Positions 1-34,552 of a stretch of DNA of 34,552 bases are shown here, piece after piece. The position numbers and the translations under genes were made by a program. The notes under the pieces are model-generated. The model worked only from the letters and a program-made list of their open reading frames with translations, was not told the DNA's origin and ran no database searches. This DNA comes from Bacteroidota bacterium (lineage in GTDB: Bacteria > Bacteroidota > Bacteroidia > 2-12-FULL-35-15): positions 1 through 34,552 of the forward strand of contig CANJPX010000034.1 in assembly GCA_947476185.1 (NCBI GenBank). Direction: 5' to 3'. Positions within the stretch are counted from its first letter, which is position 1, and the number at the start of each line of letters is the position of its first letter.

Positions 1-3000
1 AATTAATTCCATTTACACTTAATTCTTCTATTCCAATAAATGTGGCAGACGTTGAATAACAACCTGTAACACTATCAATTTGCCGCAAAGTGATTGTTAG
101 TCCGAACCAGGGTAATACGTAATATGGACCCGAGGCTCCCGGAATAATAACACCGCTATTGATCCATTGATTTCCTGTTGGAAAATTAGAGAACAAAGTA
201 TCATTACTCAATGTAATAGTTGGAATTGCCGGTAAAGGAGCTACAAAAATAGTTGTCGTATCTGATGACACGGCACATCCAAAAAAGTCGGTTACTGTAA
301 CACAATGTGAACTTGAAACAGCTACACTAATAGATGATAATGTTTGGAGTGTAGGATACCATGAATATGAATTTCCAGTGCTCGAAGCTAATATCACAGA
401 TTGCCCCTGACAAATCGTATCGTTCTTATTTAATGTGATAGAGGGTTTAGATTGCGGACTTACAGCGATGTAGCTATATTTTGTTACAGAATCAACTCCA
501 AATGCGTTCGTAACAATTAATTTTACATTATTATATACTCCAGGAACATTATATGTTATTATCGGATCTTGCAATGTAGAAGTTAAAGGTGTTCCGCCCG
601 GGAAGGTCCAGTTCCATGCGATAGGTGCATTTGTTGTGCTATCAGAAAATTGAACATTAAATCCGGGACAACCACTCAATGTATCACCTGCAAAATTTGC
701 AAAAGGTTTTAAAGATAAAGGATCATGAATAGTTGTTTGCCACAAACCGCGTCCAAAACTTGCAGCACGCAGTTTGTTCGTGCCATAATGAATTTCAAGT
801 TCATCAACCACAACATTCGGCAAACCATTAGAAAAGGGCATCCAGGAACTAAGATCATTGTCTAAATAATAAACACCTAAATCGGTACCTACATAAATTC
901 CATCGTTTGTTCCTGTTTGATTGACTACACAATTAATAGGAATGTTTGGTAAACTACCGGATAAATTTGTCCAATTAGCCCCACCATCAATCGATTTGTA
1001 AACTTTATTAGTTGAGATATATCCCGATCGTGTAATCCAAATTTTATTTGGATCTGTTGTAGAAATTTCTAAAGCAGTTATCGCTTCACCACCGGCAGAA
1101 GGATAAATAACTGTAGCCCATGTTGAACCACCATCAATTGTTTTATAGATTGCAGCAGAAGTCGCAGCATAAATATAAAGAGGGTTTGATTTTGAAACTT
1201 CCAATATCGTTAATCCACTGGAATTAAATGTTGATATTTTTGTCCATATACCACCTCTGTTTGTAGACTTCCAAACATTTTGAAAACCTGCATAAATTGT
1301 TGCAGGATCAATAGGATCTTGCATCCATGGAGTGACCCATTGTCCTGGTTCTGTGATATTATTTACAATATCATTAAAACTTCCTCCACCATCTGAAGAG
1401 CCTTGCAAAGCTCCATTTTGATATTCACCATACATGTAATTCGGATTACTCCAATCAATAAAACATTCCATCCCATCACCACCAAGCACTCTGTTAAAGA
1501 CGCCTGTGTTAAATAGATTGCAACCATTATCTTGCCATCCTTGAATCACCAAATTGGAATTTGTAACAGAGTTTCCTAAACGATACAATTCACCAATTTG
1601 CATTTGATTACTTATATCTTGCCACGAACCACCAAGATCTGATGTGACAAAAATTCCTCCATCACAAACAGCGAATGTCTTTGTTCCATCCGGACAATAT
1701 TCCAAATTATGGATATCTGCATGCACGTATGGCAATCCGCCATCACCCCACCAGTGAGTCATACAGGTCCAATTTGTTCCGGCATCATTTGATTTCCAGA
1801 TATTCACGCCACCTACTACTATTTCACTCGCATCAAACGGTGAAGCGTCAAGAGAAAGTGTATACCAACCATTTCCACCTGCATCACCTCCGGTATAATC
1901 ATAACCTAATAGGTTGGGAGAATTGCTTTGTAAAAAAAAGGATGTTGCAGAATTTGTTGAGAGGTATAAACCTTTAAAACCACTATCGGAATTTGCCGAA
2001 CATAAAACATATACAAAAGATGGATCAGCCGGAGTTACAGCAATTGCCATTCTGTTTACGGAGGAACTGGAAGGAAGACCGGCCGATACACCAATCAAAG
2101 AAAATGATGTACCTGTATTAATTGATCTGTAAAAAGCTCCGGATGCAGCAGCATAAACGACTGTCGGATCTCCCGGCTTAAATTCCATATCTTTTACATT
2201 ACCACTTGTTAAAACTTTCGTCCAAGTTATTCCAGCATCCAACGATTTATAAACACCGTAAGTTGTCGCAGCAAAGACCATATTATGATCATTAGGATTT
2301 ATTAAAATCTTTCCAATACTTCTTCCTAAACTTGTTATCCAATTTAAACCGGTGATATTCCATGTTAACCCACCATTTATAGATTTCAAAACCCCTACAC
2401 CGTATGAATCGCCAGCGTCCTGATCACCGGTACCGATATACATTATATTTGTATTAGTGGGGTCAATAGCGATAGAACTCACACCAAGCGTTGGTAATGC
2501 ATCTGTATTTGTAATCCATGTGGCACCGGCATCTGTTGTTTTCCATAAACCTCCGGCAGGTGCACCTACCCAAATAATATTGGGATTGGCAGGATGAAAT
2601 GCGATAAAATTCAATCTACCTGCTCCTCCACCGTTTCCCGGAACACCAAATGCTCCCATCGGAGACCAATTCCCTCCCACCATCATCGAACCTTTATACG
2701 TATGACTTTCAATCAATTTCTCTAATTCAGCACTTCCATTATTTAGTAAGCTTCTGTCTCCACTCGGTGCAACACGGGGTTCAATAAATTGTTCCCATCT
2801 TTTATACATTACATATCCTTCATTCTCCTTTTCTGTTTCATGTCTAAAAGTAAAAAAGCTTTTGAACTTTTCTATTTTCTCCTCTTTTGCCCAATAGTTG
2901 TTAAAGGACTTTTGAACATCATAAAAATTCACATTAGGGTCTTGCATTTTCTTGATCCATTCTTGTGAAAAAGAAGAAATAGACATGGAAGAAATAATAA

Positions 3001-3028
3001 TAAAAAAAGCAAAAAATTTACGATTCAT
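1..3028 (-). CDS. Secreted Asp-box (VPS10/sortilin-like) beta-propeller protein with PKD domain, C-terminus cut by window edge
   Basis: The frame is open from an ATG at 3028 to base 1, about 1009 codons with no stop. It begins with a signal peptide (MNRKFFAFFIIISSMSISSF). The body carries many Asp-box repeats of the S-x-D-x-G-x-x-W type (for example TTDAGATW, SLDAGITW, TIDGGSTW, SIDGGANW), the mark of BNR/sortilin-like propellers. A PKD domain follows (FPGGTPLTS ... YNVPGVYNNVKL), then an Ig-like region. The last visible residues, GIEELSVNGIN, look like the linker just before a type A T9SS sorting tail, so probably fewer than 100 residues are missing. An extracellular or cell-surface protein is inferred; the substrate is unknown and no sialidase catalytic set was identified. 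The gene diverges from the secreted protein at 3268. Confidence 0.85.
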   Translation of the reverse strand, partial: MNRKFFAFFIIISSMSISSFSQEWIKKMQDPNVNFYDVQKSFNNYWAKEEKIEKFKSFFTFRHETEKENEGYVMYKRWEQFIEPRVAPSGDRSLLNNGSAELEKLIESHTYKGSMMVGGNWSPMGAFGVPGNGGGAGRLNFIAFHPANPNIIWVGAPAGGLWKTTDAGATWITNTDALPTLGVSSIAIDPTNTNIMYIGTGDQDAGDSYGVGVLKSINGGLTWNITGLNWITSLGRSIGKILINPNDHNMVFAATTYGVYKSLDAGITWTKVLTSGNVKDMEFKPGDPTVVYAAASGAFYRSINTGTSFSLIGVSAGLPSSSSVNRMAIAVTPADPSFVYVLCSANSDSGFKGLYLSTNSATSFFLQSNSPNLLGYDYTGGDAGGNGWYTLSLDASPFDASEIVVGGVNIWKSNDAGTNWTCMTHWWGDGGLPYVHADIHNLEYCPDGTKTFAVCDGGIFVTSDLGGSWQDISNQMQIGELYRLGNSVTNSNLVIQGWQDNGCNLFNTGVFNRVLGGDGMECFIDWSNPNYMYGEYQNGALQGSSDGGGSFNDIVNNITEPGQWVTPWMQDPIDPATIYAGFQNVWKSTNRGGIWTKISTFNSSGLTILEVSKSNPLYIYAATSAAIYKTIDGGSTWATVIYPSAGGEAITALEISTTDPNKIWITRSGYISTNKVYKSIDGGANWTNLSGSLPNIPINCVVNQTGTNDGIYVGTDLGVYYLDNDLSSWMPFSNGLPNVVVDELEIHYGTNKLRAASFGRGLWQTTIHDPLSLKPFANFAGDTLSGCPGFNVQFSDSTTNAPIAWNWTFPGGTPLTSTLQDPIITYNVPGVYNNVKLIVTNAFGVDSVTKYSYIAVSPQSKPSITLNKNDTICQGQSVILASSTGNSYSWYPTLQTLSSISVAVSSSHCVTVTDFFGCAVSSDTTTIFVAPLPAIPTITLSNDTLFSNFPTGNQWINSGVIIPGASGPYYVLPWFGLTITLRQIDSVTGCYSTSATFIGIEELSVNGIN

Positions 3029-3048
3029 TTTTCAGGAAATTTAAAGCA

Positions 3049-3079
3049 ACAAGGTACGGGTTAATGAACTTTTATCAAA
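3049..3079 (-). promoter_or_regulatory. Possible promoter of the propeller gene
   Basis: Read on the minus strand: TTTG (3079-3076), a 19-base spacer, then TACCTTGT (3056-3049). The second box is an imperfect match to the Bacteroidota -7 element TAnnTTTG. It lies about 20 bases before the ATG at 3028. The spacing is right, but the weak -7 box keeps confidence low. Confidence 0.35.
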
Positions 3080-3128
3080 TTAAAAATCAGTTATAATTAG
3101 TATTCCATCGACCAATTAACAATAATAA

Positions 3129-3159
3129 TTGCGCAATAACTTATGTGTAAATATTTTTG
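3129..3159 (+). promoter_or_regulatory. Bacteroidota-type promoter for the SBBP-repeat gene
   Basis: TTG (3129-3131), a 20-base spacer and TATTTTTG (3152-3159) match the TTG / TAnnTTTG consensus exactly. Transcription would start near 3166, leaving a leader of about 100 bases before the ATG at 3268. A second TAAATTTG box lies at 3203-3210 but has no TTG at the right distance. Confidence 0.5.
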
Positions 3160-3267
3160 GGACATGAAAATAAAAAATTACGACAGCAAAATAATTGCGC
3201 TTTAAATTTGAAAAATGGAAAAATCTCATTAAATTCGTTATTAGAAATTTCCGAAACATCTCTCATT

Positions 3268-4989
3268 ATGAAAAAGATTTTCATTTTTCTTTTTTTTCTT
3301 TTATTTGGGAATATATCCTTTTCACAAAGTTTTGATTGGCTAACTCCTGGCGGAGGTCCAAAAAGCGACAAGGCAACAGGGATTGCTATTGACTCTGCAG
3401 GAAACACATATATTACCGGCTATTTTAATGAAGAAGCGACTTTTGGCCCTTTCTATCATCCATTGATCGACCTGCACAGCAAAGAAGTTTTTGTTTCTAA
3501 GATTGACCCTATGGGGAATTATGTATGGTCCAAAAGGGGATCCAATCATTATGATGATCGCGGATTAGGAATTTGCTTAGATCCAGCCGGGAATGTATAT
3601 GTTACAGGAACATGTTGGGGAGGACTCATTTTCGGATCGCTAAATGTATATAACAGCTCCTCTTATACAGATCAAATATTTGTCTTGAAATTAGATAATA
3701 ATGGAAACGAGATCTGGTTAAAAAATGCAGGTGTTGATGAAGCCGGATATCCTTATAATGATGACCAAGGATTTGATCTTACTTCTGACAGTAACGGAGA
3801 TATTTATGTAACAGGATTTCTGTCGAACCATGACCCGATTTCTCATTATGCAAACTTTGATGCCATTCAGGTATTGGTTTCTCCTGATGATTCATTAGCA
3901 TTTGTTGCAAAACTTTCTAACGCAGGTGTTTGGCAATGGGTGCAAACCAACGGAGGTTTAGATGATGCACGCGACAACCGGATAACGACAGACGATGAAA
4001 ATAATGTATATGTGACCGGAGGTTTTAATGAAACACAAACATTCGGTCCTACCACTCTAGTTAGCCATGGAGGTTCGGATGTTTATGTGGTAAAATATGA
4101 TCAACTTGGAAATTTTATTTATGCTGTTAACGCAGGTAGCCCATTAGATGACAGAGGAAATGACATCGCTTTCGACCATAGCAACCATTTGTATATAACC
4201 GGGGAATTTAAAGATAAGGCCGTTTTTGGAACGGATACCATTAACAATAATGGAAGCGGCGGGGATCGAGATATCTTTGTTACGCGCATGACAAAAACGG
4301 GTGTATTTGAATGGGTTAAAAAAGCCGGATCAAATAGCGGTGGTGACAGAGGAAATGGGATCGTAGTGAATAATACCGGTAATATTTTTGTGACAGGTCA
4401 ATTTAAAGATTCAGCGAAATTTGGAGGAACACTTCAAGCATTCACAACTCCCGGGGATATTCAAGTTTTTATTGCTGCAATAGATTCATTGGGTAAATGG
4501 AGATGGGTTTTAGATGGTGGAAGCGCAAGTGATGATAGAGGAAATGGGATTTGCTGTGATAAATATTGCAATGTTTTTGTGGATGGGTTTTATGAAAACA
4601 CGTTAAATTTCAATACAAACACTATCAGTTCTGCAGGTTTGAAAGATATGTTCACAGTGAAAGTTAAAGAGGCTTGCTTTGGTTATGGCTTCGTTGCTCC
4701 TCCCGAGCCTGTTAGTTCGTTTTTTGCTCCAAATGTTTTTAGTCCAAATGGTGATGCTATAAATGATGTATTTAAATTTTCAACAAAAAATATGGCAAAG
4801 CTTAATTGTAAAATATTTAACCGTTGGGGTAATTTGATATACGAATTAACCACTGTAGATGCTGTCTGGAACGGACGAACAAAGTCAGGTTCAGAGTGTT
4901 CTCCTGGAGTTTATTACTATGTTGTGACTGCAGAAGGTGATGAAGGTAAAAAATACAACGAAAAAGGTTTTGTGCAATTACTCAGATAA
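3268..4989 (+). CDS. Secreted SBBP-repeat propeller protein with type B T9SS (gliding-motility C-terminal) domain
   Basis: 573 aa. The open frame extends upstream to 3157, but the ATG at 3268 is chosen because it starts a clean signal peptide (MKKIFIFLFFLLFGNISFSQ). About seven SBBP-type repeats follow, each built around D-D-R-G-x-G-I ... G-N-x-Y-V-T-G-x-F with a later F-G (for example DDRGNDIAFDHSNHLYITG). The last ~90 residues form a CHU_C/gliding-motility-associated C-terminal domain: FAPNVFSPNGDAINDVFKF, then CKIFNRWGNLIYE, W-N-G and SPGVYYYVV. This is the type B T9SS signal, used for export across the outer membrane to the surface or medium. No enzymatic motif is visible; repeats of this kind are usually structural or binding. 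It appears monocistronic. Confidence 0.9.
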   Translation: MKKIFIFLFFLLFGNISFSQSFDWLTPGGGPKSDKATGIAIDSAGNTYITGYFNEEATFGPFYHPLIDLHSKEVFVSKIDPMGNYVWSKRGSNHYDDRGLGICLDPAGNVYVTGTCWGGLIFGSLNVYNSSSYTDQIFVLKLDNNGNEIWLKNAGVDEAGYPYNDDQGFDLTSDSNGDIYVTGFLSNHDPISHYANFDAIQVLVSPDDSLAFVAKLSNAGVWQWVQTNGGLDDARDNRITTDDENNVYVTGGFNETQTFGPTTLVSHGGSDVYVVKYDQLGNFIYAVNAGSPLDDRGNDIAFDHSNHLYITGEFKDKAVFGTDTINNNGSGGDRDIFVTRMTKTGVFEWVKKAGSNSGGDRGNGIVVNNTGNIFVTGQFKDSAKFGGTLQAFTTPGDIQVFIAAIDSLGKWRWVLDGGSASDDRGNGICCDKYCNVFVDGFYENTLNFNTNTISSAGLKDMFTVKVKEACFGYGFVAPPEPVSSFFAPNVFSPNGDAINDVFKFSTKNMAKLNCKIFNRWGNLIYELTTVDAVWNGRTKSGSECSPGVYYYVVTAEGDEGKKYNEKGFVQLLR

Positions 4990-17057: not shown

Positions 17058-17444
17058 TTATAACTTTTCTATCAGCTCTTTCACTCTTCGCTCGATCTCA
17101 TCTCTTACTTTATTGAAATCAACAGCATTCATATGTTTTGGATCGTCTAATTTCCAGTCTTCACGATGTTCCGCAACAACAAAAGGACATTCGTCTCCAC
17201 AGCCCATTGTGATTGCGTAATCGTATTTTATTTGAGGGATCTGTTCGAGTGATTTTGAATCATGTGTAGTAAGATCGTACCCAACTTCTTTCATCGCAGC
17301 TATCGCTTTTGGATTTATTATTCCTGAAGGACGGGAACCGGAACTGTATACATTTATTTTTCCTTTCCCATGTATTTTCGCGAAAGCTTCTGCCATTTGA
17401 CTCCGATTTGAATTTTCGACACAAACGAATAATATGTTTTTCAT
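17058..17444 (-). CDS. arsC: Arsenate reductase ArsC, LMW-phosphatase fold
   Basis: 128 aa. The P-loop is C8-VENSNR14 (C-x5-R), the nucleophile of the LMW-PTPase-like, thioredoxin-linked arsenate reductases. The redox cysteines lie in MGCGDECPF (Cys82 and Cys86), and EDWKLDDPKH matches the family's W-x-x-D-D-P loop. It reduces arsenate to arsenite in the cytosol for export by the Acr3 pump encoded 9 bases upstream. It is the last gene of the arsR operon and ends directly against the convergent lolD-like gene. Confidence 0.93.
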   Translation of the reverse strand: MKNILFVCVENSNRSQMAEAFAKIHGKGKINVYSSGSRPSGIINPKAIAAMKEVGYDLTTHDSKSLEQIPQIKYDYAITMGCGDECPFVVAEHREDWKLDDPKHMNAVDFNKVRDEIERRVKELIEKL

Positions 17445-26544: not shown

Positions 26545-27000
26545 ATGACTAAAATTTTAATGGTTTGCCTGGGTAATATTTGTCGCTCACCTCTTGCTGA
26601 AGGTATTTTGAGAGAAAAGTCGGAGAAGAAGAATCTATCTATTTATATTGATTCTGCAGGCACTTCAAATTACCACATTGGTGATCATCCCGACAGACGA
26701 ACTGTTTCCAATGCCTTGGCGCATGGTGTTGATATTTCACAACTGAAAGCTAGGCAATTTTCAAGTGGAGACTATGATAATTTCGATCGTATTTTTGTTA
26801 TGGATAGTTCAAATTATTCGGATGTTATTTCCCTGGCAAGAAATGAAGGAGATAAAAAAAAAGTGGAACTCATTTTAAATTGCGTTTATCCGAATTCTAA
26901 TATGTCTGTACCCGACCCCTATTTCGGTGGTGAACAAGGATTTGAAAATGTATTTATATTGCTCGATAAAGCATGTGATGAAATTATAAGATCTATTTGA
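26545..27000 (+). CDS. Low-molecular-weight protein-tyrosine phosphatase
   Basis: 151 aa, standard length. The P-loop is MVCLGNICRSPLAEG with nucleophile Cys8 and Arg14 (C-x5-R-S). IDSAGTSNYHIGDHPDRR and DRIFVMDSSNY are family motifs, and the general acid lies in VPDPYFGG. It dephosphorylates tyrosine residues in the cytosol; relatives next to Wzc-type kinases regulate polysaccharide export, but no BY-kinase is present here. It begins 7 bases after the sensor kinase stop, so the two are probably one operon. ArsC at 17058-17444 shares the fold, but this protein lacks the arsenate-reductase cysteines. Confidence 0.92.
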   Translation: MTKILMVCLGNICRSPLAEGILREKSEKKNLSIYIDSAGTSNYHIGDHPDRRTVSNALAHGVDISQLKARQFSSGDYDNFDRIFVMDSSNYSDVISLARNEGDKKKVELILNCVYPNSNMSVPDPYFGGEQGFENVFILLDKACDEIIRSI

Positions 27001-27745: not shown

Positions 27746-30385
27746 TTACAATCTAACCCACTTCACGGTCTCACCGATGCAGGTTTTTATAATATAAACT
27801 CCGGGCTGAAGAGTTGCAGTTTCAATAAACATAGCTTTTTCTACAGTCATAATTTTTTGACCAAGCGAATTATATAGATTAAATGAAATAGGTTTATTAA
27901 AATATAATTTGTCAAAATTCTTTGCAGGATTCGGATATACGCTTAAGGGTTGAGACTCGTCAATAACAGTTGTTTCATGATTTGATCTTCCAGGAGTAGG
28001 AAAATTAAAAAATATCCAGGTTGAATCCCCATCTTTTTGTCTACCCCATGAATGATTTGGATTTTGTGAAGAATAAACAATTGAGTCTACTGTTGTTTTT
28101 CCATCAGGTAATATTAATGCGAGTGCTTCACCCGAGGATGATAATTTAAAATCAACATGATTAATACCTTGCTCCAATTGCTGATCCGCCCAAAGTAATA
28201 AAAAACCTTTTGCCGGAATGATTGTTTTTGTCTTTCCGCTTGCAAAACGATATTTTATTTTGTTAGACAAAGAATCTGTTACGTAATATCCGTCAATATC
28301 TACTTGAAAATTATTTGGATTATAGATCTCAAACCAATCATCTTTTTCACCGTATTCATCAGCATAGTTTGTGTTTCGGGCCACTAATTCATTCAGATAT
28401 AAATAATGAATAGGTTTAAATGTTGTGTCGACAGAAAATACCGCAGTAAAAGAAGTGTCGCTATTTAAGTAAACAACAGTATCGGGATTTGTGATCAAAG
28501 TGTTAAGCCAATTCATAAACCTGTAACCCGGACGGGCTATGGCCTTTAAAGGAACAGGTATCGAGGTAAAATATTTCCCTTTCCAAGGATAAGGCGAGCC
28601 AGTTATCCCGATTGTGTTATTATCTATGATAAGCGTGCTCAACTTAACTCTTCCGGCCAATGTGTCTGATACGTTGACAATAACATCGATTGTATCAGCC
28701 AAAATAAAATTATTCATGTAATGTTTAAGGATCTTTGCCGGACGTTTATTTATAAAATCCAAGAGATCAGTATTTATCGTATTCCATTTTGTTAGTGAGG
28801 GTACTTCCGATGCTCTTGACGCAAGCGTTGTTGAAACAGAAGGGTACCTCCATCTGTTCACATGGTCAGGCATTTCTAAACTTAATTCTGCATCCAGATT
28901 ATTTGCAATAGCAGAGATCCTTGACGGTAAAAATTCAGTATTCAACAGATCTGCACACCTGTTTATAAATTGATACTTAAAATCAGCATTGACCATCAAA
29001 GCTCTTAAAAGAAGAGTTGAATTCCCTCCAGTTGTCGAAATTGCAACGCTCAATGAATTGTAATTCGGATAAACGCCACTACAATCACCACCAAACCCGG
29101 CATCCAGATCATACATCATCCATCGCCAACGACCATCACGATTTACTCCAGCATTTGGATCGTAATACGGGGTTTTATACCTCCAGAATTTTATATTATT
29201 ATTTGGCCAGTCTCCATTCCCAAAATAAATTTCTGATGTTTCATAATCGATATAATTATCAACATCTATCAATGTTTTGATATAGTTAAAATTTGATGGA
29301 TTTGTCATATCATTGTTTACGGCAAAATCCCGCATATTTAAATAGTGAATATTATCCGAAGGTGCTCCATCATCTAAAGCTCCACTCAATTCCAAAACAA
29401 CCACATCTGAAGTGTTACAATGATATTTATTTGCGATATAATTTTCATCGAATATATCTTTGATAGTTTGAATCCCCCAATATTCCCCGTTAATAAAAAC
29501 AATTACTTGCGATGAATGCTGCACTTCAAAGTCCATGTTTTGTACCATTTGTCCAGCAAGGTCGTCTCTTGGAAAACAATCAGGACGGTGACCGCTGTTT
29601 CGCAATAAAAAACTCTTAAAGACATTGGTGTTCTTGTCATAAAAAAATTGATATCCGAAGGAATCTTTATCTATCGATCTCCGAGAGATAAACATCAATG
29701 ATTTTTGCGGAGCATGTCTTCCTCCTCCTCCATGCTCTCTGACCCCGCAATATTGAGATAATTTTAAGCTTCCATCCGTTCCGAACAATTGAATGTTTAC
29801 AATCCGCTCTTCAGCATCAACAGAATAGTTTCCTTCATTAACTGTATCGATCCCATAAACATAAATTCCTGTGGTATCTGAAAAGAAATTTGCACTGTCG
29901 GTACTTATTGAAACAACGGGCATGGAATATTTAGTGCTTAATAAAGCATCGATAAAATAATTTGCAACAATTGTTTTGCTTGAAAGGTAACCTGTTTTGA
30001 ATGCTTTTGCTTTCAGCACAGTAGATTTATTAACTTCTGCATAAGGAGCAAGCCATCCCCTTGTATTTGCACGAGCAGAATCGTAACCATTTATAGGATA
30101 TGTAAATGAGGGGTTTGTTGGGATCATTGAAAATGAATTTGCCTGACCTGTCCTATTCTTTATTAAGATTGGAGTGGAATAAACGGCTGAAGAAATTGTC
30201 GGTTCATTTCCGTTTAATGTATAATGAATTGTTACACCAGCATCGGGAGATGAAATGGTCACAAAAATTGAATCTGAATAATAGCCAGCAGGATGTGAAA
30301 ATGATGGTGCAGAAAGAGTTTGTGCTTGATTGAAAAAAGGCAAGAACAAAAGAATAATCAGAAAAATCTTTTTTCGCACAAACAT
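27746..30385 (-). CDS. Secreted CotH-kinase-like protein with chitobiase-like, lamin-tail and type A T9SS domains
   Basis: 879 aa from the ATG at 30385; a TTG at 30397 is possible but less likely. Signal peptide MFVRKKIFLIILLFLPFFN-QAQ. Residues ~30-150 form a chitobiase/HEX C-terminal-like beta domain (YYSDSIFVTISS, IHYTLNGNEPT). A CotH domain follows: HAPQKSLMF, FINGEYWGIQTIKDIFDE (about 297-314), NGDWPNNNIKFWR (about 390-402) and MMYDLDAGFGG (about 424-434). Then come an InlB-B-repeat-like stretch (PGYRFMNWLNT), a lamin-tail domain (YLYLNELVARN ... DDWFEIYNPN) and a type A T9SS tail (SVYPNPAKN ... LQPGVYIIK). CotH proteins are atypical kinases in spore coats. A secreted surface role is inferred here; substrate unknown. 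It lies 98 bases after the GT2 gene. Confidence 0.9.
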   Translation of the reverse strand: MFVRKKIFLIILLFLPFFNQAQTLSAPSFSHPAGYYSDSIFVTISSPDAGVTIHYTLNGNEPTISSAVYSTPILIKNRTGQANSFSMIPTNPSFTYPINGYDSARANTRGWLAPYAEVNKSTVLKAKAFKTGYLSSKTIVANYFIDALLSTKYSMPVVSISTDSANFFSDTTGIYVYGIDTVNEGNYSVDAEERIVNIQLFGTDGSLKLSQYCGVREHGGGGRHAPQKSLMFISRRSIDKDSFGYQFFYDKNTNVFKSFLLRNSGHRPDCFPRDDLAGQMVQNMDFEVQHSSQVIVFINGEYWGIQTIKDIFDENYIANKYHCNTSDVVVLELSGALDDGAPSDNIHYLNMRDFAVNNDMTNPSNFNYIKTLIDVDNYIDYETSEIYFGNGDWPNNNIKFWRYKTPYYDPNAGVNRDGRWRWMMYDLDAGFGGDCSGVYPNYNSLSVAISTTGGNSTLLLRALMVNADFKYQFINRCADLLNTEFLPSRISAIANNLDAELSLEMPDHVNRWRYPSVSTTLASRASEVPSLTKWNTINTDLLDFINKRPAKILKHYMNNFILADTIDVIVNVSDTLAGRVKLSTLIIDNNTIGITGSPYPWKGKYFTSIPVPLKAIARPGYRFMNWLNTLITNPDTVVYLNSDTSFTAVFSVDTTFKPIHYLYLNELVARNTNYADEYGEKDDWFEIYNPNNFQVDIDGYYVTDSLSNKIKYRFASGKTKTIIPAKGFLLLWADQQLEQGINHVDFKLSSSGEALALILPDGKTTVDSIVYSSQNPNHSWGRQKDGDSTWIFFNFPTPGRSNHETTVIDESQPLSVYPNPAKNFDKLYFNKPISFNLYNSLGQKIMTVEKAMFIETATLQPGVYIIKTCIGETVKWVRL

Positions 30386-30483
30386 AATTAGTATCAACTC
30401 TGTAATGATAGTTATAATATTAAAAATACAATATTTTTTTATCTTAAAAAATACAAAAACAAGATCGCTAATTTTATTGAAAA

Positions 30484-31791
30484 TTATAGTTTCAAGGCTT
30501 TTGCATGCCGCGAAGATTTAGCGGGATTCCAATTATCCTTATAAGATGTTTTAAAGAAAAGTTCTTGTATATATGCAGTAGTTCTTACAATACGGAGGAA
30601 GTAGCCAAAGTAAAATACCATCAAGGGTAAATAAATTAAAAAGTAGGTAACAGATTCATTTTTACGATCTCGGAAAGGAGAGAATACAAGAAACTTGAAA
30701 ACATTATTTGCCGTGTAAAGCATAATGTTCATTGGAACAATGAAAAACAATTGTGATCCGAAATTTATGATCATGTCGGCCAAATAGAAATACCATTTGA
30801 TATTCAAAATTAAATTATAGGTGATATTCTCAACAAAAGAAATAAAGTTTGACCAGCGGAATGAATCATTTGGGAAAAATACATCGCGGTGTTTACGTAA
30901 ACGGAAACGGATGAGTGATTTATCCCAACGCAATCGTTGTTTTATAAGTTTCTTGAATGTGTTAGGAACACTTGTTTGGCAAACTGCTGAAGGTTCAAAA
31001 TGGATCTTATATCCTAGTTTTCTGATCTTTACAGTAATGTCTCCATCCAATCCAGGACCAATATCCCAACCGCCTAGCCTGTCGAGTGCTTCTTTTTTAA
31101 ATGCTCCGAAAGCACCCGAAATAACGCGATAAATCCCCAATTCACTGGATGCGATCCTCCCGACTGAAATTGTATCCATATATTCGATTGCTTGCAGTGT
31201 CGCACATAAACTTTCCTTATAATTTCTTACTTGCACATTCCCGCCAATTGCTCCGATATTTAAATCGTAATAAAATGGCACAAGAATATTTTCGATCGCA
31301 TCTCTGTCGTAGGAACAATCTGCATCCAAATGAATAACAAATTGACCGCGAGAATAACGTAATCCCAGGTTTGCGGCAGAAGCTTTTCCACCCCGAACTT
31401 CATTCCTTAAATAAGTATCAATGAATCCGCTCTTTTTTAAGCTTCTGCATATTTCCGGGGTCGCATCATCTGAACCATCATCTATAACAATCAATTCAAA
31501 ATTTTGATAGGTTTGTTCTTTTAAAGAGTTTGCTAATTTATAAATATTCTGACCTTCATTTTTCCCGGGGACAATGATAGAAATGAAAGGTTGTTTTTCC
31601 CACAATGTCAAGCGGGCATCAGCTATTCTTTTTTTGCGAAAAAAGCCGGTGAATTTCCATAAAACAAGAGTCGTGATCTCGATAAGAAAGAAACGGAAAA
31701 ATTCAAAGACGAAAAAAAACCAGAACATGCGGAAGAACTTTGCAGCATCAACAGCAGTTGCGTAGTTATAAAGCTCATCAATATAACGCAT
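30484..31791 (-). CDS. Membrane glycosyltransferase family 2, processive polysaccharide-synthase type
   Basis: 435 aa. An N-terminal membrane segment (FFRMFWFFFVFEFFRFFLIE, 19-38) precedes a GT-A domain: ISIIVPGKNEGQ (70-81), IVIDDGSDDATPEI (101-114), HLDADCSYD (154-162, metal-binding DAD 156-158), GGWDIGPGLDGDITVKI (240-256, acid residues Asp249/251) and Q285-R-L-R-W289 (QxxRW). C-terminal hydrophobic segments (326-400) would form the translocation path. The QxxRW motif places it with cellulose, hyaluronan and poly-GlcNAc synthases and Alg8, which polymerise a sugar nucleotide and push the chain across the inner membrane. Its ATG overlaps the stop of the TackOD1 gene by one base (TAATG), so the two are translationally coupled. 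The polymer is unknown. Confidence 0.9.
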   Translation of the reverse strand: MRYIDELYNYATAVDAAKFFRMFWFFFVFEFFRFFLIEITTLVLWKFTGFFRKKRIADARLTLWEKQPFISIIVPGKNEGQNIYKLANSLKEQTYQNFELIVIDDGSDDATPEICRSLKKSGFIDTYLRNEVRGGKASAANLGLRYSRGQFVIHLDADCSYDRDAIENILVPFYYDLNIGAIGGNVQVRNYKESLCATLQAIEYMDTISVGRIASSELGIYRVISGAFGAFKKEALDRLGGWDIGPGLDGDITVKIRKLGYKIHFEPSAVCQTSVPNTFKKLIKQRLRWDKSLIRFRLRKHRDVFFPNDSFRWSNFISFVENITYNLILNIKWYFYLADMIINFGSQLFFIVPMNIMLYTANNVFKFLVFSPFRDRKNESVTYFLIYLPLMVFYFGYFLRIVRTTAYIQELFFKTSYKDNWNPAKSSRHAKALKL

Positions 31792-33212
31792 TAATCAAAT
31801 AGATCTTTGGTTAATTCTTGTAACTGGATCTCGGCTTTTGTGTGTGAATGCAATATCTTTCCTTTAGAAAGCACTTTTACATCAAAGCCATCAAAATTGT
31901 TTTTTATAACCTTCTCGATGAGGATACTCAAGCTCATGAGCTGTTGTTCAGCTTTCATTGTATCAGAATTTATCAACCCTAAATATAATGTTGAAGAATT
32001 TTCAAAAGCAATAAAATCTGCAGGATGAATGTTTTCGCGGATCATATGCACAAGGTCTTCTAATAATTTCTTCTCTGCTTTTTTACCGATCTTATTATAG
32101 AGTTCAAAAATGTTCTCTAAATTAATTATCGCAATACTTGTCTTTTGCGATGAATTTGCTTTTATACGCTCCAATTCATAATGCAACATTATCTTAAATG
32201 TTGCCATATTTATTGTGCCGAAAATATCTTCTATCTCTTGTCCTGACGATAAAAAACCATTGGTAGCAGCTGCTCTCCCCTTTTTAGTCAGTTTGTAAAT
32301 GTTTATTGATTTTGGAATCAAATATTGCACTTCAACATCCTGTGAGCAGGAAATACATTTTGCTTTCACAAAGAAATCCTGGAAATTATTATCACAACTA
32401 TTGCAATGATGGATAATGGAAGGCTTATCATAATCAACACCAATATGACGTAGGCCTTTGTTACATTTTGGGCATGTTAAAGTATTATCAATTGAATTTT
32501 TATAATCCGAAAGTGGTCCGATATAAGCACATGGAAAATGATGTACTAGATCTTCTGATTTAGAATTGGATGAATTACAATGCGGACAAACCTCGCGATA
32601 ACTCAGGAATCCGCTACTGCAAAGATTACATAAATAAATGCGTTCCATGAAATCAGGCCATATCAAACCTTCCCTTTCAGCCCATTCAAAAATTTCCAGC
32701 ACTTGCGATTCTTCAGCATCGTCAAAATGAACCGATATTTCAGGATATGTATATCCGATAATTGAGCTTACATCGACATGAGGCTTTAGTGTTTTGAGGT
32801 CACGTGTGAACATAAAATTCAACACCTTTTTCATTGTCTGTGCTTCAAATGAGGATATGATCTGATAATCGAGCTGTGTTGTTTTGAAAAATATTTGCTT
32901 TACAACTTCTGAGATCTCTTTTATCTGATCGTATGAATAGACAATACCATCATGCAAATAATTTAAAAATGGATCTTTGGATTCTTTATGATTGATCAAA
33001 AAGATCGGTTTCAGATAAAATTCAGGATTGTAATGAGTGCGTATTCTTTTGATAATAAATCGTGCAAACTCAGCATCTCTGGCATCCACGATAATAGCAT
33101 CGTAACCCATCAAATGTTCAATTTTCAGGCTGGAGTTACTGTCGATCGTATAAAACAATAAGTTTTCGTATTCAATCTTATTGTCTTTTATTTCTATGTT
33201 ATCGAATTTCAT
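31791..33212 (-). CDS. TackOD1-like zinc-ribbon protein with receiver-like and degenerate GGDEF-like ends
   Basis: 473 aa, soluble. Residues 1-115 look like a receiver fold (YDAIIVDARD with Asp43; PIFLINHK). The centre (about 190-300) has five CxxC pairs: Cys195/198, 209/212, 247/250, 270/273, 286/289, plus HHFPCAYIGP (His224/225, Cys228) and LRHIGVDYDKP. This pattern matches the TackOD1 output domain first named from thaumarchaeal signalling proteins, as far as I can judge by eye. Residues ~340-470 resemble a nucleotide-cyclase/GGDEF fold (TSIAIINLENIFELYNKIG; ADFIAFENSSTLYLGL) but lack the G-G-D/E-E-F loop, so no cyclase activity is expected. It probably senses or relays a signal to the GT2 synthase encoded directly downstream. 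Confidence 0.78.
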   Translation of the reverse strand: MKFDNIEIKDNKIEYENLLFYTIDSNSSLKIEHLMGYDAIIVDARDAEFARFIIKRIRTHYNPEFYLKPIFLINHKESKDPFLNYLHDGIVYSYDQIKEISEVVKQIFFKTTQLDYQIISSFEAQTMKKVLNFMFTRDLKTLKPHVDVSSIIGYTYPEISVHFDDAEESQVLEIFEWAEREGLIWPDFMERIYLCNLCSSGFLSYREVCPHCNSSNSKSEDLVHHFPCAYIGPLSDYKNSIDNTLTCPKCNKGLRHIGVDYDKPSIIHHCNSCDNNFQDFFVKAKCISCSQDVEVQYLIPKSINIYKLTKKGRAAATNGFLSSGQEIEDIFGTINMATFKIMLHYELERIKANSSQKTSIAIINLENIFELYNKIGKKAEKKLLEDLVHMIRENIHPADFIAFENSSTLYLGLINSDTMKAEQQLMSLSILIEKVIKNNFDGFDVKVLSKGKILHSHTKAEIQLQELTKDLFD

Positions 33213-33226
33213 TGCAAAATTTTATT

Positions 33227-34309
33227 TTAGTACTTAAACTTTGTAACAGTAACGCTCATCTTATAAAACGCTCTCCAATGTGAATATTCTTGTTCCGAAA
33301 CCGGATAAATGTCAGCCGCAATTGTTCTTGTTGTTGGTTCATAGCGTTTTTGAAATTCATCAGGAAGCGGATAAGTAGCATAATAGAATCGTTTGATTAT
33401 ACCTTTACTGTCTGTTCCATCGGGGAATTCAATATTTACCATATCTCCTTCTTTAAAATAATTCAAGTCTTCTTGCTCAAAAAATCCTTTCACATACATC
33501 GGAGTGTTTTTGTGAATGGCCATAATTTGTTCTGATTTTAAAGCCACTTCATACTGATGTGTATAAATGCGGGTAACCGTTCCATCGATTGGGGAATAAA
33601 AAATCTTTACAGCATTTTCATCATTATTGCCATTACCTCCTCCACCAATAGAGCCACTCTTTATACTTTTAACACGAGGAGCTTTGATCATACTATTCAA
33701 TTGTTTTAACAAACCATACAACTGATTATTCTCACTTGTCAATTTAGAAATAGCAGTATTTAATCGTAAAATTTCGTTCTGAACATATTCCAATCTGTTT
33801 TTAGGTAATACATCTAAAACTACTTCATTTTGCAAACGTTGGATCTCTGTCTTGTAGCTGGCGATTAGCGCACCGGATTCTGTAATATCAATTTTGTTTA
33901 ATGCTACCTTTTTCATCAAGGCATATTTTTCTTTTTCGATCCAATCCCACTCATTGTCGTAGCTGGTAGCAGTGATTCCACCAGATAATGAAAGGTTACC
34001 CCATAAATTATCTTTATCCAAAGTATAAGTGAATAAAGAATCGCCCACTTTAACAGTATCTCCTTCTTCTTTTTGAAATCCTATGATCCTGCAATCATCT
34101 GTTAAACGAATACTAACGTTTTCAAACAGAACTTGTCCATCCGCTTTAATAAAAAATGTTTTATTGATGGCATAATACCCTAAAAAAAGGAAAACAAGCG
34201 ACAAAAAAACAATATAAATCACTCTATCCCAATTGCGTTTAGGCCTTTTGGCATCTTCGTTAACTACACGGATAACTGAATCTTTACGTTTAAAATCTAT
34301 ACTTTTCAA
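33227..34309 (-). CDS. HlyD-like membrane adaptor (Alg44-like co-polymerase candidate)
   Basis: 360 aa. A short basic cytoplasmic tail (to ~29), one membrane helix (IYIVFLSLVFLFLGYYAI, 31-48), then the first half of a lipoyl/barrel-sandwich domain (RIIGFQKEEGDTVKVGDSLF). A coiled coil (about 125-215) is followed by a glycine/asparagine-rich insert (SIGGGGNGNNDEN), the second lipoyl half (KIFYSPIDGTVTRIYTHQYEVA) and a beta-barrel part (VKGFFEQEDLNYF). This is the HlyD/membrane-fusion layout; the periplasmic part of Alg44 in alginate synthesis is of the same type. The only usable start is TTG at 34309: a stop lies two codons upstream and no ATG occurs for over 100 residues. It lies 14 bases from each neighbour, in an operon with the TackOD1 and GT2 genes. 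Confidence 0.87.
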   Translation of the reverse strand: MKSIDFKRKDSVIRVVNEDAKRPKRNWDRVIYIVFLSLVFLFLGYYAINKTFFIKADGQVLFENVSIRLTDDCRIIGFQKEEGDTVKVGDSLFTYTLDKDNLWGNLSLSGGITATSYDNEWDWIEKEKYALMKKVALNKIDITESGALIASYKTEIQRLQNEVVLDVLPKNRLEYVQNEILRLNTAISKLTSENNQLYGLLKQLNSMIKAPRVKSIKSGSIGGGGNGNNDENAVKIFYSPIDGTVTRIYTHQYEVALKSEQIMAIHKNTPMYVKGFFEQEDLNYFKEGDMVNIEFPDGTDSKGIIKRFYYATYPLPDEFQKRYEPTTRTIAADIYPVSEQEYSHWRAFYKMSVTVTKFKY

Positions 34310-34323
34310 AACTTATTATTTTA

Positions 34324-34552
34324 TTATTTTTCTTGCATTACACTTAACTCATCCAGCTTTACAAATGTTTCAAGATCATGTAAAGCAAATTTTGTGGCGT
34401 TAAGAGTTGTGCTTAATTCTTTGATCAATTGTTCGCATTCCATTCTGTTTTTAAAATCTTTTGCCCGAAGCGCTATTATAGTTTTATTCGCATCAACAGC
34501 AAATTCCTCTTTCACTTTTTTTATAATGAAATCAGCTTTCGGATGCTCATAT
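34324..34552 (-). CDS. Partial gene, C-terminal 75 residues; unrecognised helical protein
   Basis: The frame is open from the right edge to a TAA at 34324. Visible residues begin YEHPKADFIIKKVKEE and end KLDELSVMQEK. The stretch is polar and probably alpha-helical (KDFKNRMECEQLIKELSTTL), with no signal, membrane segment or motif I recognise. It ends 14 bases before the HlyD-like start and so is probably the upstream member of the same operon. A TolC-like outer-membrane protein tail would fit the position, but the sequence alone does not show it. Confidence 0.6.
   Translation of the reverse strand, partial: YEHPKADFIIKKVKEEFAVDANKTIIALRAKDFKNRMECEQLIKELSTTLNATKFALHDLETFVKLDELSVMQEK

Follow-up and report, generated by a model that had tools for sequence, protein, structure and literature searches.

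A TackOD1 zinc-ribbon protein encoded with a candidate exopolysaccharide synthase and putative export partners in a conserved Bacteroidota operon

The window analysed here is the whole of contig CANJPX010000034.1 (34,552 bases), from an assembly of a Bacteroidota bacterium (GCA_947476185.1). On its minus strand it carries a real and intact three-gene operon encoding an HlyD-like periplasmic adaptor, a protein built around the TackOD1 zinc-ribbon domain, and a family 2 glycosyltransferase (GT2). In Bacteroidota the unit consists of these genes preceded by a fourth, OEP-GH, the product of which reads as one protein joining a TolC-like channel to a hydrolase-like barrel. Its gene content, gene order, two-way co-occurrence and domain make-up were established by computation. 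We consider it probable that the unit represents a family of synthase-dependent exopolysaccharide secretion systems in which the soluble TackOD1 protein regulates or assembles the GT2. The system would be known in its class and new in its regulator; as a gene-neighbourhood prediction that gives TackOD1 a partner, this is strongly supported.

Gene arrangement and conservation in Bacteroidota

The initial annotation had described the three genes as one tight operon with a 14-base gap and a TAATG overlap, and the minus-strand open reading frames (ORFs) bear this out (Table 1). The gap lies between the HlyD and TackOD1 genes, and the TackOD1 and GT2 genes overlap in the TAATG at 31791. The end of the OEP-GH gene and the start of the HlyD gene are likewise separated by 14 bases. 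Only 243 bases of contig remain upstream of the HlyD gene, so the fourth gene is cut; in relatives it is complete and encodes a product of ~700 amino acids.

Table 1. Features of the operon and its downstream neighbour in the window
Feature	Position	Strand	Basis
OEP-GH, putative TolC-like/GH18-like fusion gene, last 75 codons and stop	34324..34552	-	Frame reading; grouped with ~700-amino-acid proteins upstream of HlyD in relatives
HlyD-like periplasmic adaptor, 360 amino acids, TTG start, one membrane segment	33227..34309	-	ORF, Pfam, hydropathy
TackOD1 protein, 473 amino acids, no membrane segment predicted	31791..33212	-	ORF, Pfam, hydropathy
N-domain of the TackOD1 protein, residues 1-118	32859..33212	-	Homologous ~110-amino-acid separate gene in six Balneolaceae loci
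TackOD1 zinc-ribbon domain, five CxxC and one HxxC	32289..32846	-	PF18551 match
Degenerate GGDEF domain, residues ~322-434 (approximate limits, from profile positions)	31911..32249	-	Profile match
GT2, synthase-like glycosyltransferase, 435 amino acids, QRLRW	30484..31791	-	ORF, Pfam, motif
CotH/LTD/Por_Secre_tail protein, possible accessory gene, not core	27746..30397	-	Pfam

The arrangement recurs well beyond the window. Among 59 genomes of relatives, the source genome included, TackOD1 was found in 13; the 12 loci fetched besides the window all keep the order OEP-HlyD-TackOD1-GT2 over whatever length their contigs cover. Across 392 genomes of the phylum, TackOD1 scored over the cut-off in 12 and only below it in 6 more; the same order was seen in all 12 loci besides that of the window, two of them in one genome, with one or two extra genes between HlyD and TackOD1 in four. 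A named-genome scan found 320 relatives, of which the best-scoring 80 were kept; these 80 loci lean to Bacteroidota near the window, and several are the same records as loci L016-L027. In this set the GT2 gene lies downstream of TackOD1 in 78 loci (76 within 60 bases), the HlyD gene upstream of TackOD1 in 77 (74 within 60 bases) and the OEP gene upstream in 74 (70 within 60 bases of HlyD), with median gaps between the genes of the unit of -1, 2 and 2 bases. All four genes occur in order in 72 of the 80 loci. Each of the 8 incomplete ones runs into a contig end on the side where a gene is lacking, so the order is more than chance.

Co-occurrence is equally strict. With TackOD1 taken over its Pfam cut-off and the GT2 at E up to 1e-60, the GT2 search returned exactly the TackOD1-bearing genomes of three samples (13 of 59, 12 of 392 and 24 of 396), and neither protein was found without the other. 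The samples overlap and their genomes are related, so these counts are not independent events; nearly all GT2 candidates were scored in the 59-genome sample and four candidates per genome in the large ones. The initial annotation had proposed co-occurrence of the three families in conserved order as its check, and this is what was found: one fixed order across many Bacteroidota genera, and another in Proteobacteria.

The best conserved parts of the unit are TackOD1 and the GT2. Over 68 loci, median identity is 0.64 for the GT2, 0.58 for TackOD1, 0.44 for HlyD, 0.34 for the GGDEF-like domain, 0.33 for the N-domain and 0.30 for OEP. Some loci are enlarged between HlyD and TackOD1. L046-L049 carry there a nucleotide-sugar dehydrogenase-like gene of 455-457 codons (Pfam checked in L047 only), preceded in L047-L049 by a further gene for ~650 amino acids, and L105 carries one for 870 amino acids (1088-3700), the only such case among the 80 loci. 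A small GT2 gene upstream of OEP (cluster 4) was considered as a core part and rejected, since 10 of the first 12 loci of relatives have it and all 12 loci of the phylum sample lack it.

The TackOD1 protein

The initial annotation called the protein with five CxxC pairs TackOD1-like, an identification that holds: PF18551 matches residues 123-308 with an E-value of 4.4e-50 (170 bits, cut-off 32), and there is one HxxC besides. The six pairs stand at residues 195, 209, 225, 247, 270 and 286. Exactly five CxxC pairs are present in 98 of 105 TackOD1 proteins of relatives, and in the relative L057 the protein stops after the TackOD1 domain.

The part that follows the zinc ribbons is a degenerate GGDEF domain. 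In a profile of the protein family, positions 322-434 align with GGDEF domains of known structure (best E 9.3e-8). Pfam GGDEF is over its cut-off (23.8) in the TackOD1 proteins of Plesiomonas (41.6 bits) and Aeromonas (34.9 bits) and below it in those of two relatives scanned; the window protein gave no match at E up to 1. The GG(D/E)EF motif is intact in none of 102 aligned TackOD1 proteins, that of the window included (the 105 minus three with a C-terminus too short after the TackOD1 match). RxxD is kept at the I-site position in 36 of these and lost as a pair in 66, while the aspartate is present in 93. By group, RxxD occurs in 30 of 82 Bacteroidia/Flavobacteriia rows, 1 of 9 Balneolaceae-type rows and 5 of 11 Proteobacterial rows. 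The window protein lacks it and has HPAD at this position.

The N-terminal part varies. In six loci, assigned to Balneolaceae from the protein names of relatives, a ~110-amino-acid homologue of the N-domain is encoded as a separate gene just upstream, and the TackOD1 protein starts with receiver-like sequence. A Pfam receiver was found on 5 of 14 members scanned and on 112 of 120 listed relatives (of 156) of the Roseibium TackOD1 protein; receiver-bearing members belong to Balneolaceae and Alphaproteobacteria. The window protein has no Pfam receiver match at E up to 1. The N-domain looked by eye like a degenerate receiver, but hhalign against six Balneolaceae receivers gave a probability of 0.1, and the domain is not detectably a receiver. 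No DNA-binding family is over its Pfam cut-off in the window protein, and no TackOD1-GT2 fusion appears in the Pfam columns of the relatives listed (120 of 730 and 120 of 156). A second TackOD1 match in the source genome, on contig C1, reached 20.4 bits with four internal stops and was discarded.

The glycosyltransferase, the adaptor and the fourth gene

The assignment of the third protein as a QxxRW-type GT2 also proved correct. PF00535 matches with an E-value of 6.3e-30 (105 bits, cut-off 23), the window protein has the motif QRLRW, and QRxRW is present in 71 of 71 full-length GT2s. Simple hydropathy places hydrophobic segments at residues ~19-44, 340-358 and 381-402, that is, at both ends. 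The combination of Q(Q/R)xRW with flanking membrane segments marks the protein as a putative processive GT2 synthase. The nearest curated family is PgaC/IcaA, at 178 bits against an NCBIfam equivalog cut-off of 422 bits, which is not reached.

The description of the first protein as an HlyD-like single-pass adaptor stands as well, HlyD_3 lying just over its cut-off (22.4 bits against 22.2) and HlyD_2 below its own; the single hydrophobic segment falls at residues ~30-48 by simple hydropathy. In the relative L027, both HlyD_D23 and HlyD_3 are over cut-off.

The N-terminal part of OEP-GH gave PF02321 matches in three Bacteroidota proteins, all weak (E 5.8e-4 to 0.01) and below cut-off; the TolC protein of the Aeromonas locus L144 is over it, at 37 bits against 22. 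The last 230 amino acids form a separate domain with a PF00704 (GH18) match in 5 of 14 members (best E 1.5e-6). A profile of this domain matched a putative glycosidase of known structure at E 5.7e-4; chitotriosidase followed at E 0.26, with unrelated chance-like matches between the two. HLDVEP keeps its D and E, and MAYE its M and Y, in every one of 88 aligned rows, some of them near-duplicates, and two D residues further on are likewise invariant; the GH18-like part lies largely outside the window. Five Bacteroidota loci (L046-L049 and L053) encode a shorter OEP protein without a recognisable barrel.

Distribution outside Bacteroidota

With the TackOD1 protein as query, 72,556 plasmids yielded 21 records, 20 of which were listed. 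A GT2 gene adjoins the TackOD1 gene in all 15 listed bacterial records, from Alpha- and Gammaproteobacteria (12 by fetched region and three by match coordinates; the Photobacterium record is unannotated), and an HlyD-like gene is part of the unit in all 12 fetched Proteobacterial records. The Proteobacterial order is TackOD1-GT2-HlyD, with a TolC gene between GT2 and HlyD in Aeromonas; the Aeromonas caviae plasmid pKAM329_3 (29 kb, typed as mobilizable) holds TackOD1, GT2, TolC and HlyD genes together (L144, 7650-13481). In Alisedimentitalea scapharcae (L151, 6920-8205) a second small TackOD1 piece lies between TackOD1 and GT2, and the TackOD1 gene may be broken there, two annotated pieces facing one frame in the close relative L140.

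The haloarchaeal records are more varied. One of the five listed, from Halorussus, has TackOD1, DUF2334 and GT2 in a row. Proteins of ~330 amino acids with an N-terminal TackOD1 domain and no GT2 beside them (L147, L149, L153 and L155) represent another TackOD1 context. On pHLAC01 of Halorubrum lacusprofundi (L160, 2253-5125), a frame comprising a zinc ribbon, a membrane segment and DUF2334 stands before a GT2 gene. This fusion was kept as a hint only, its ribbon scoring 20.6 bits against a cut-off of 32 and lying partly upstream of the annotated start.

The plasmid search with the GT2 gave 136 records, of which 40 were listed. Every one of the best 14 rows is a record that also bears TackOD1; a Levilactobacillus enzyme ranks fifteenth, followed by one annotated as PgaC. 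A Sinorhizobium plasmid row (L156) has GT2, HlyD and a 109-amino-acid TackOD1-like protein. Its equation with the known arabinose polysaccharide cluster was set aside on the look of the neighbouring frames, which appeared unlike that cluster, no direct comparison being made. A GT2 tree of 47 rows groups all 39 TackOD1-linked bacterial GT2s in a single clade (SH-aLRT 97), outside which fall six GT2s without TackOD1 and two haloarchaeal enzymes; the tree is a quick one with a midpoint root, flagged long branches and only those six enzymes for comparison.

Relation to cyclic di-GMP

The initial annotation placed TackOD1 'in place of c-di-GMP control'. This fits the Bacteroidota tested and may not extend to members in which RxxD is kept. 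PilZ gave no Pfam match in the three operon proteins at E up to 1, and none was found in the source genome. The single canonical GGDEF match of that genome (L138, C175:2188-2661) lies within a frame of 1164 amino acids, on a stretch with a G+C content of 0.442 against 0.341 for the window; contig C175 is suspected of being foreign to the assembly. In 22 operon-bearing genomes, chosen by hand from across the 80, GGDEF gave just two matches; by coordinates and frame lengths both fall inside the TackOD1 gene, and none lies elsewhere. Because of this absence, it is unlikely that the degenerate GGDEF domain answers to cyclic di-GMP made by GGDEF enzymes in the Bacteroidota tested, and loss of such control there is likely. 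That claim is confined to these organisms, as Gammaproteobacterial TackOD1 proteins that keep RDTD may answer to cyclic di-GMP.

Proposed function and alternative explanations

In the system as we picture it, the membrane GT2 would polymerise a sugar chain and thread it through the inner membrane. Transport from there over the periplasm and outer membrane would fall to the HlyD-like adaptor and the TolC-like protein, the latter with a GH18-like domain that would trim or release the chain. The soluble TackOD1 protein would sit at the cytoplasmic face of the GT2, switching it on or assembling it; this placement is suggested by the fact that TackOD1 and GT2 are the best conserved parts of the unit and the two that it has in common with Halorussus. 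The zinc ribbons would face the GT2, with the receiver, where present, and the degenerate GGDEF domain as exchangeable inputs. Binding of TackOD1 to the GT2, the direction of control and the nature of the polymer are what we infer here. A hexosamine-type chain would be most likely, a guess made because PgaC/IcaA is the nearest curated GT2 family. The nucleotide-sugar dehydrogenases of L046-L049, and DUF2334 beside the haloarchaeal GT2s, suggest that polymers differ between loci; DUF2334 we take to be a deacetylase-like family.

More tentatively, and with rather less than even confidence, one class of GT2 polymer synthases, in bacteria and certain archaea, may have TackOD1 as its general cytoplasmic switch; this switch could be driven by two-component phosphorylation and would replace cyclic di-GMP in organisms without that messenger.

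Several observations weigh against the proposed system. No curated synthase cut-off is reached by the GT2, and the OEP match of the Bacteroidota proteins is weak. A TolC gene stands beside the unit in only 2 of the 12 fetched Proteobacterial records (Aeromonas and Methylocystis). Sub-cut-off TackOD1 matches occur in genomes without this GT2, 6 of them in the 392-genome sample and 8 in the 396-genome sample. Finally, TackOD1 is not exclusively a GT2 partner, since four of the five listed haloarchaeal TackOD1 proteins have no adjoining GT2 and thaumarchaeal ones, including arCOG06883, are reported in type IV pilus loci (PMC5847659, PMC4858521; papers are cited here by PMC number for excerpts of their text, arCOG06883 after PMC4858521).

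The TackOD1 protein might still be a nucleotide sensor, its degenerate GGDEF domain binding cyclic di-GMP or another nucleotide at RxxD and so controlling the GT2, with part of the Bacteroidota having lost the arginine. The 36 proteins that keep RxxD, the 93 that keep the aspartate and the precedents of PelD and BcsE (PMC8461298, PMC7439463) are in keeping with such a sensor. However, loss of the pair in 66 of the 102, HPAD in the window, a source genome without PilZ and with its one GGDEF on a contig of other G+C, and the confinement of the two GGDEF matches of the 22 genomes to the TackOD1 gene itself make it unlikely. A role for TackOD1 as gene regulator or metal sensor, sharing a transcript with the synthase without contacting it, is quite improbable. 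Zinc ribbons and receivers are common in regulators, and the first account of TackOD1 concerned an output domain of archaeal response regulators (PMC5847659), but a bystander would hardly show two-way obligate co-occurrence with the GT2, or have GT2 neighbours in a common clade despite differing gene orders, and the window protein has no DNA-binding family over cut-off.

Doubt may also fall on the GT2, which could transfer a single sugar, or a few, onto a lipid or an envelope component, with HlyD and TolC exporting a small product. Its score lies below every curated synthase cut-off and the polymer itself is only predicted; against this stand QRxRW, the membrane segments at both ends, the proximity to PgaC/IcaA and the GH18-like domain on the TolC-like partner, and we hold a non-polymer enzyme to be very improbable. 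A secretion system whose GT2 is regulated or assembled by TackOD1 is the reading we prefer.

Through this operon the TackOD1 domain acquires a partner and a probable function. If the general-switch proposal were true, it would supply a function for a domain called obscure in 2018 (PMC5847659) and define a new exopolysaccharide secretion family with a TolC-hydrolase exit. In operon-bearing Bacteroidota such as the 22 genomes that gave no GGDEF match beyond the TackOD1 gene, the operon is a named candidate for the switching of such a polymer. The system is sometimes plasmid-borne, and in the records examined its genes are annotated as hypothetical protein, diguanylate cyclase, response regulator or glycosyltransferase.

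Other genes on the contig

The gene that follows the GT2, on the same strand and 86 bases downstream, encodes a CotH-kinase protein that also has Fn3-associated and LTD domains and a weak type IX sorting domain. It was rejected as a core part, since only 16 of the 68 loci whose flank is long enough have a same-strand relative after the GT2. The contig also carries two genes of the low-molecular-weight phosphotyrosine phosphatase family, at 17058-17444 (minus strand) and 26545-27000 (plus strand).

Comparison with known systems

A literature search over titles and the beginnings of abstracts, with subscription papers mostly outside it, found no description of this operon, either as an HlyD/TolC/GT2 polysaccharide system or for such a regulator. 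Synthesis of cellulose, alginate, Pel and poly-N-acetylglucosamine (PNAG) is described as dependent in each case on cyclic di-GMP binding (PMC8461298). The alginate proteins Alg8 and Alg44 resemble the window unit in pairing a GT2 with a single-pass membrane-fusion protein (PMC8461298). Alg44, however, has a PilZ domain and senses cyclic di-GMP, whereas the unit described here has no PilZ match, a separate soluble TackOD1 protein and a predicted TolC-like exit. The Alg8/Alg44-like synthase unit proposed in the initial annotation thus survives in part: co-occurrence, QxxRW and the missing PilZ agree with it, while the degenerate GGDEF domain of the TackOD1 protein and the extra TolC-like/hydrolase-like gene depart from it.

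The PNAG synthases PgaABCD and IcaADBC contain the nearest curated GT2 family. The TackOD1-linked GT2s form a clade apart from PgaC, and HlyD, OEP-GH and the TackOD1 protein take the place of a PgaD-type partner. In the XcsA/XcsB/TolC model for cyanobacterial cellulose, a GT2, an HlyD-like adaptor and TolC form a tripartite exporter (PMC12430437); there PilZ is part of the GT2, the TolC gene lies elsewhere and the model is called unproven, whereas here the four genes, TackOD1 among them, share one operon. In rhizobia, a two-gene operon encodes the mixed-linkage beta-glucan synthase BgsBA, made up of a GT2 and a partner with an HlyD domain (PMC9495663). In that system cyclic di-GMP binds the C-terminus of the GT2 itself (PMC5567048), and the excerpts mention no TackOD1 protein.

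The output domain of archaeal response regulators is the same Pfam domain, with five CxxC and one HxxC and with receiver fusions (PMC5847659). It is described mainly from Thaumarchaeota and from type IV pilus loci, whereas here it is a fixed neighbour of a GT2. Because it carries a degenerate GGDEF domain, the TackOD1 protein resembles BcsE and PelD, on predicted domain grounds, more than Alg44. Like it, these are soluble or cytoplasmic degenerate-GGDEF proteins that serve an exopolysaccharide synthase (PMC7439463, PMC8461298), BcsE with a pair of degenerate receiver and degenerate GGDEF domains in cellulose secretion (PMC7439463). The TackOD1 protein differs from both in the zinc ribbons between its N-terminal part and the GGDEF domain, in its PgaC-like GT2 partner and in the frequent loss of RxxD.

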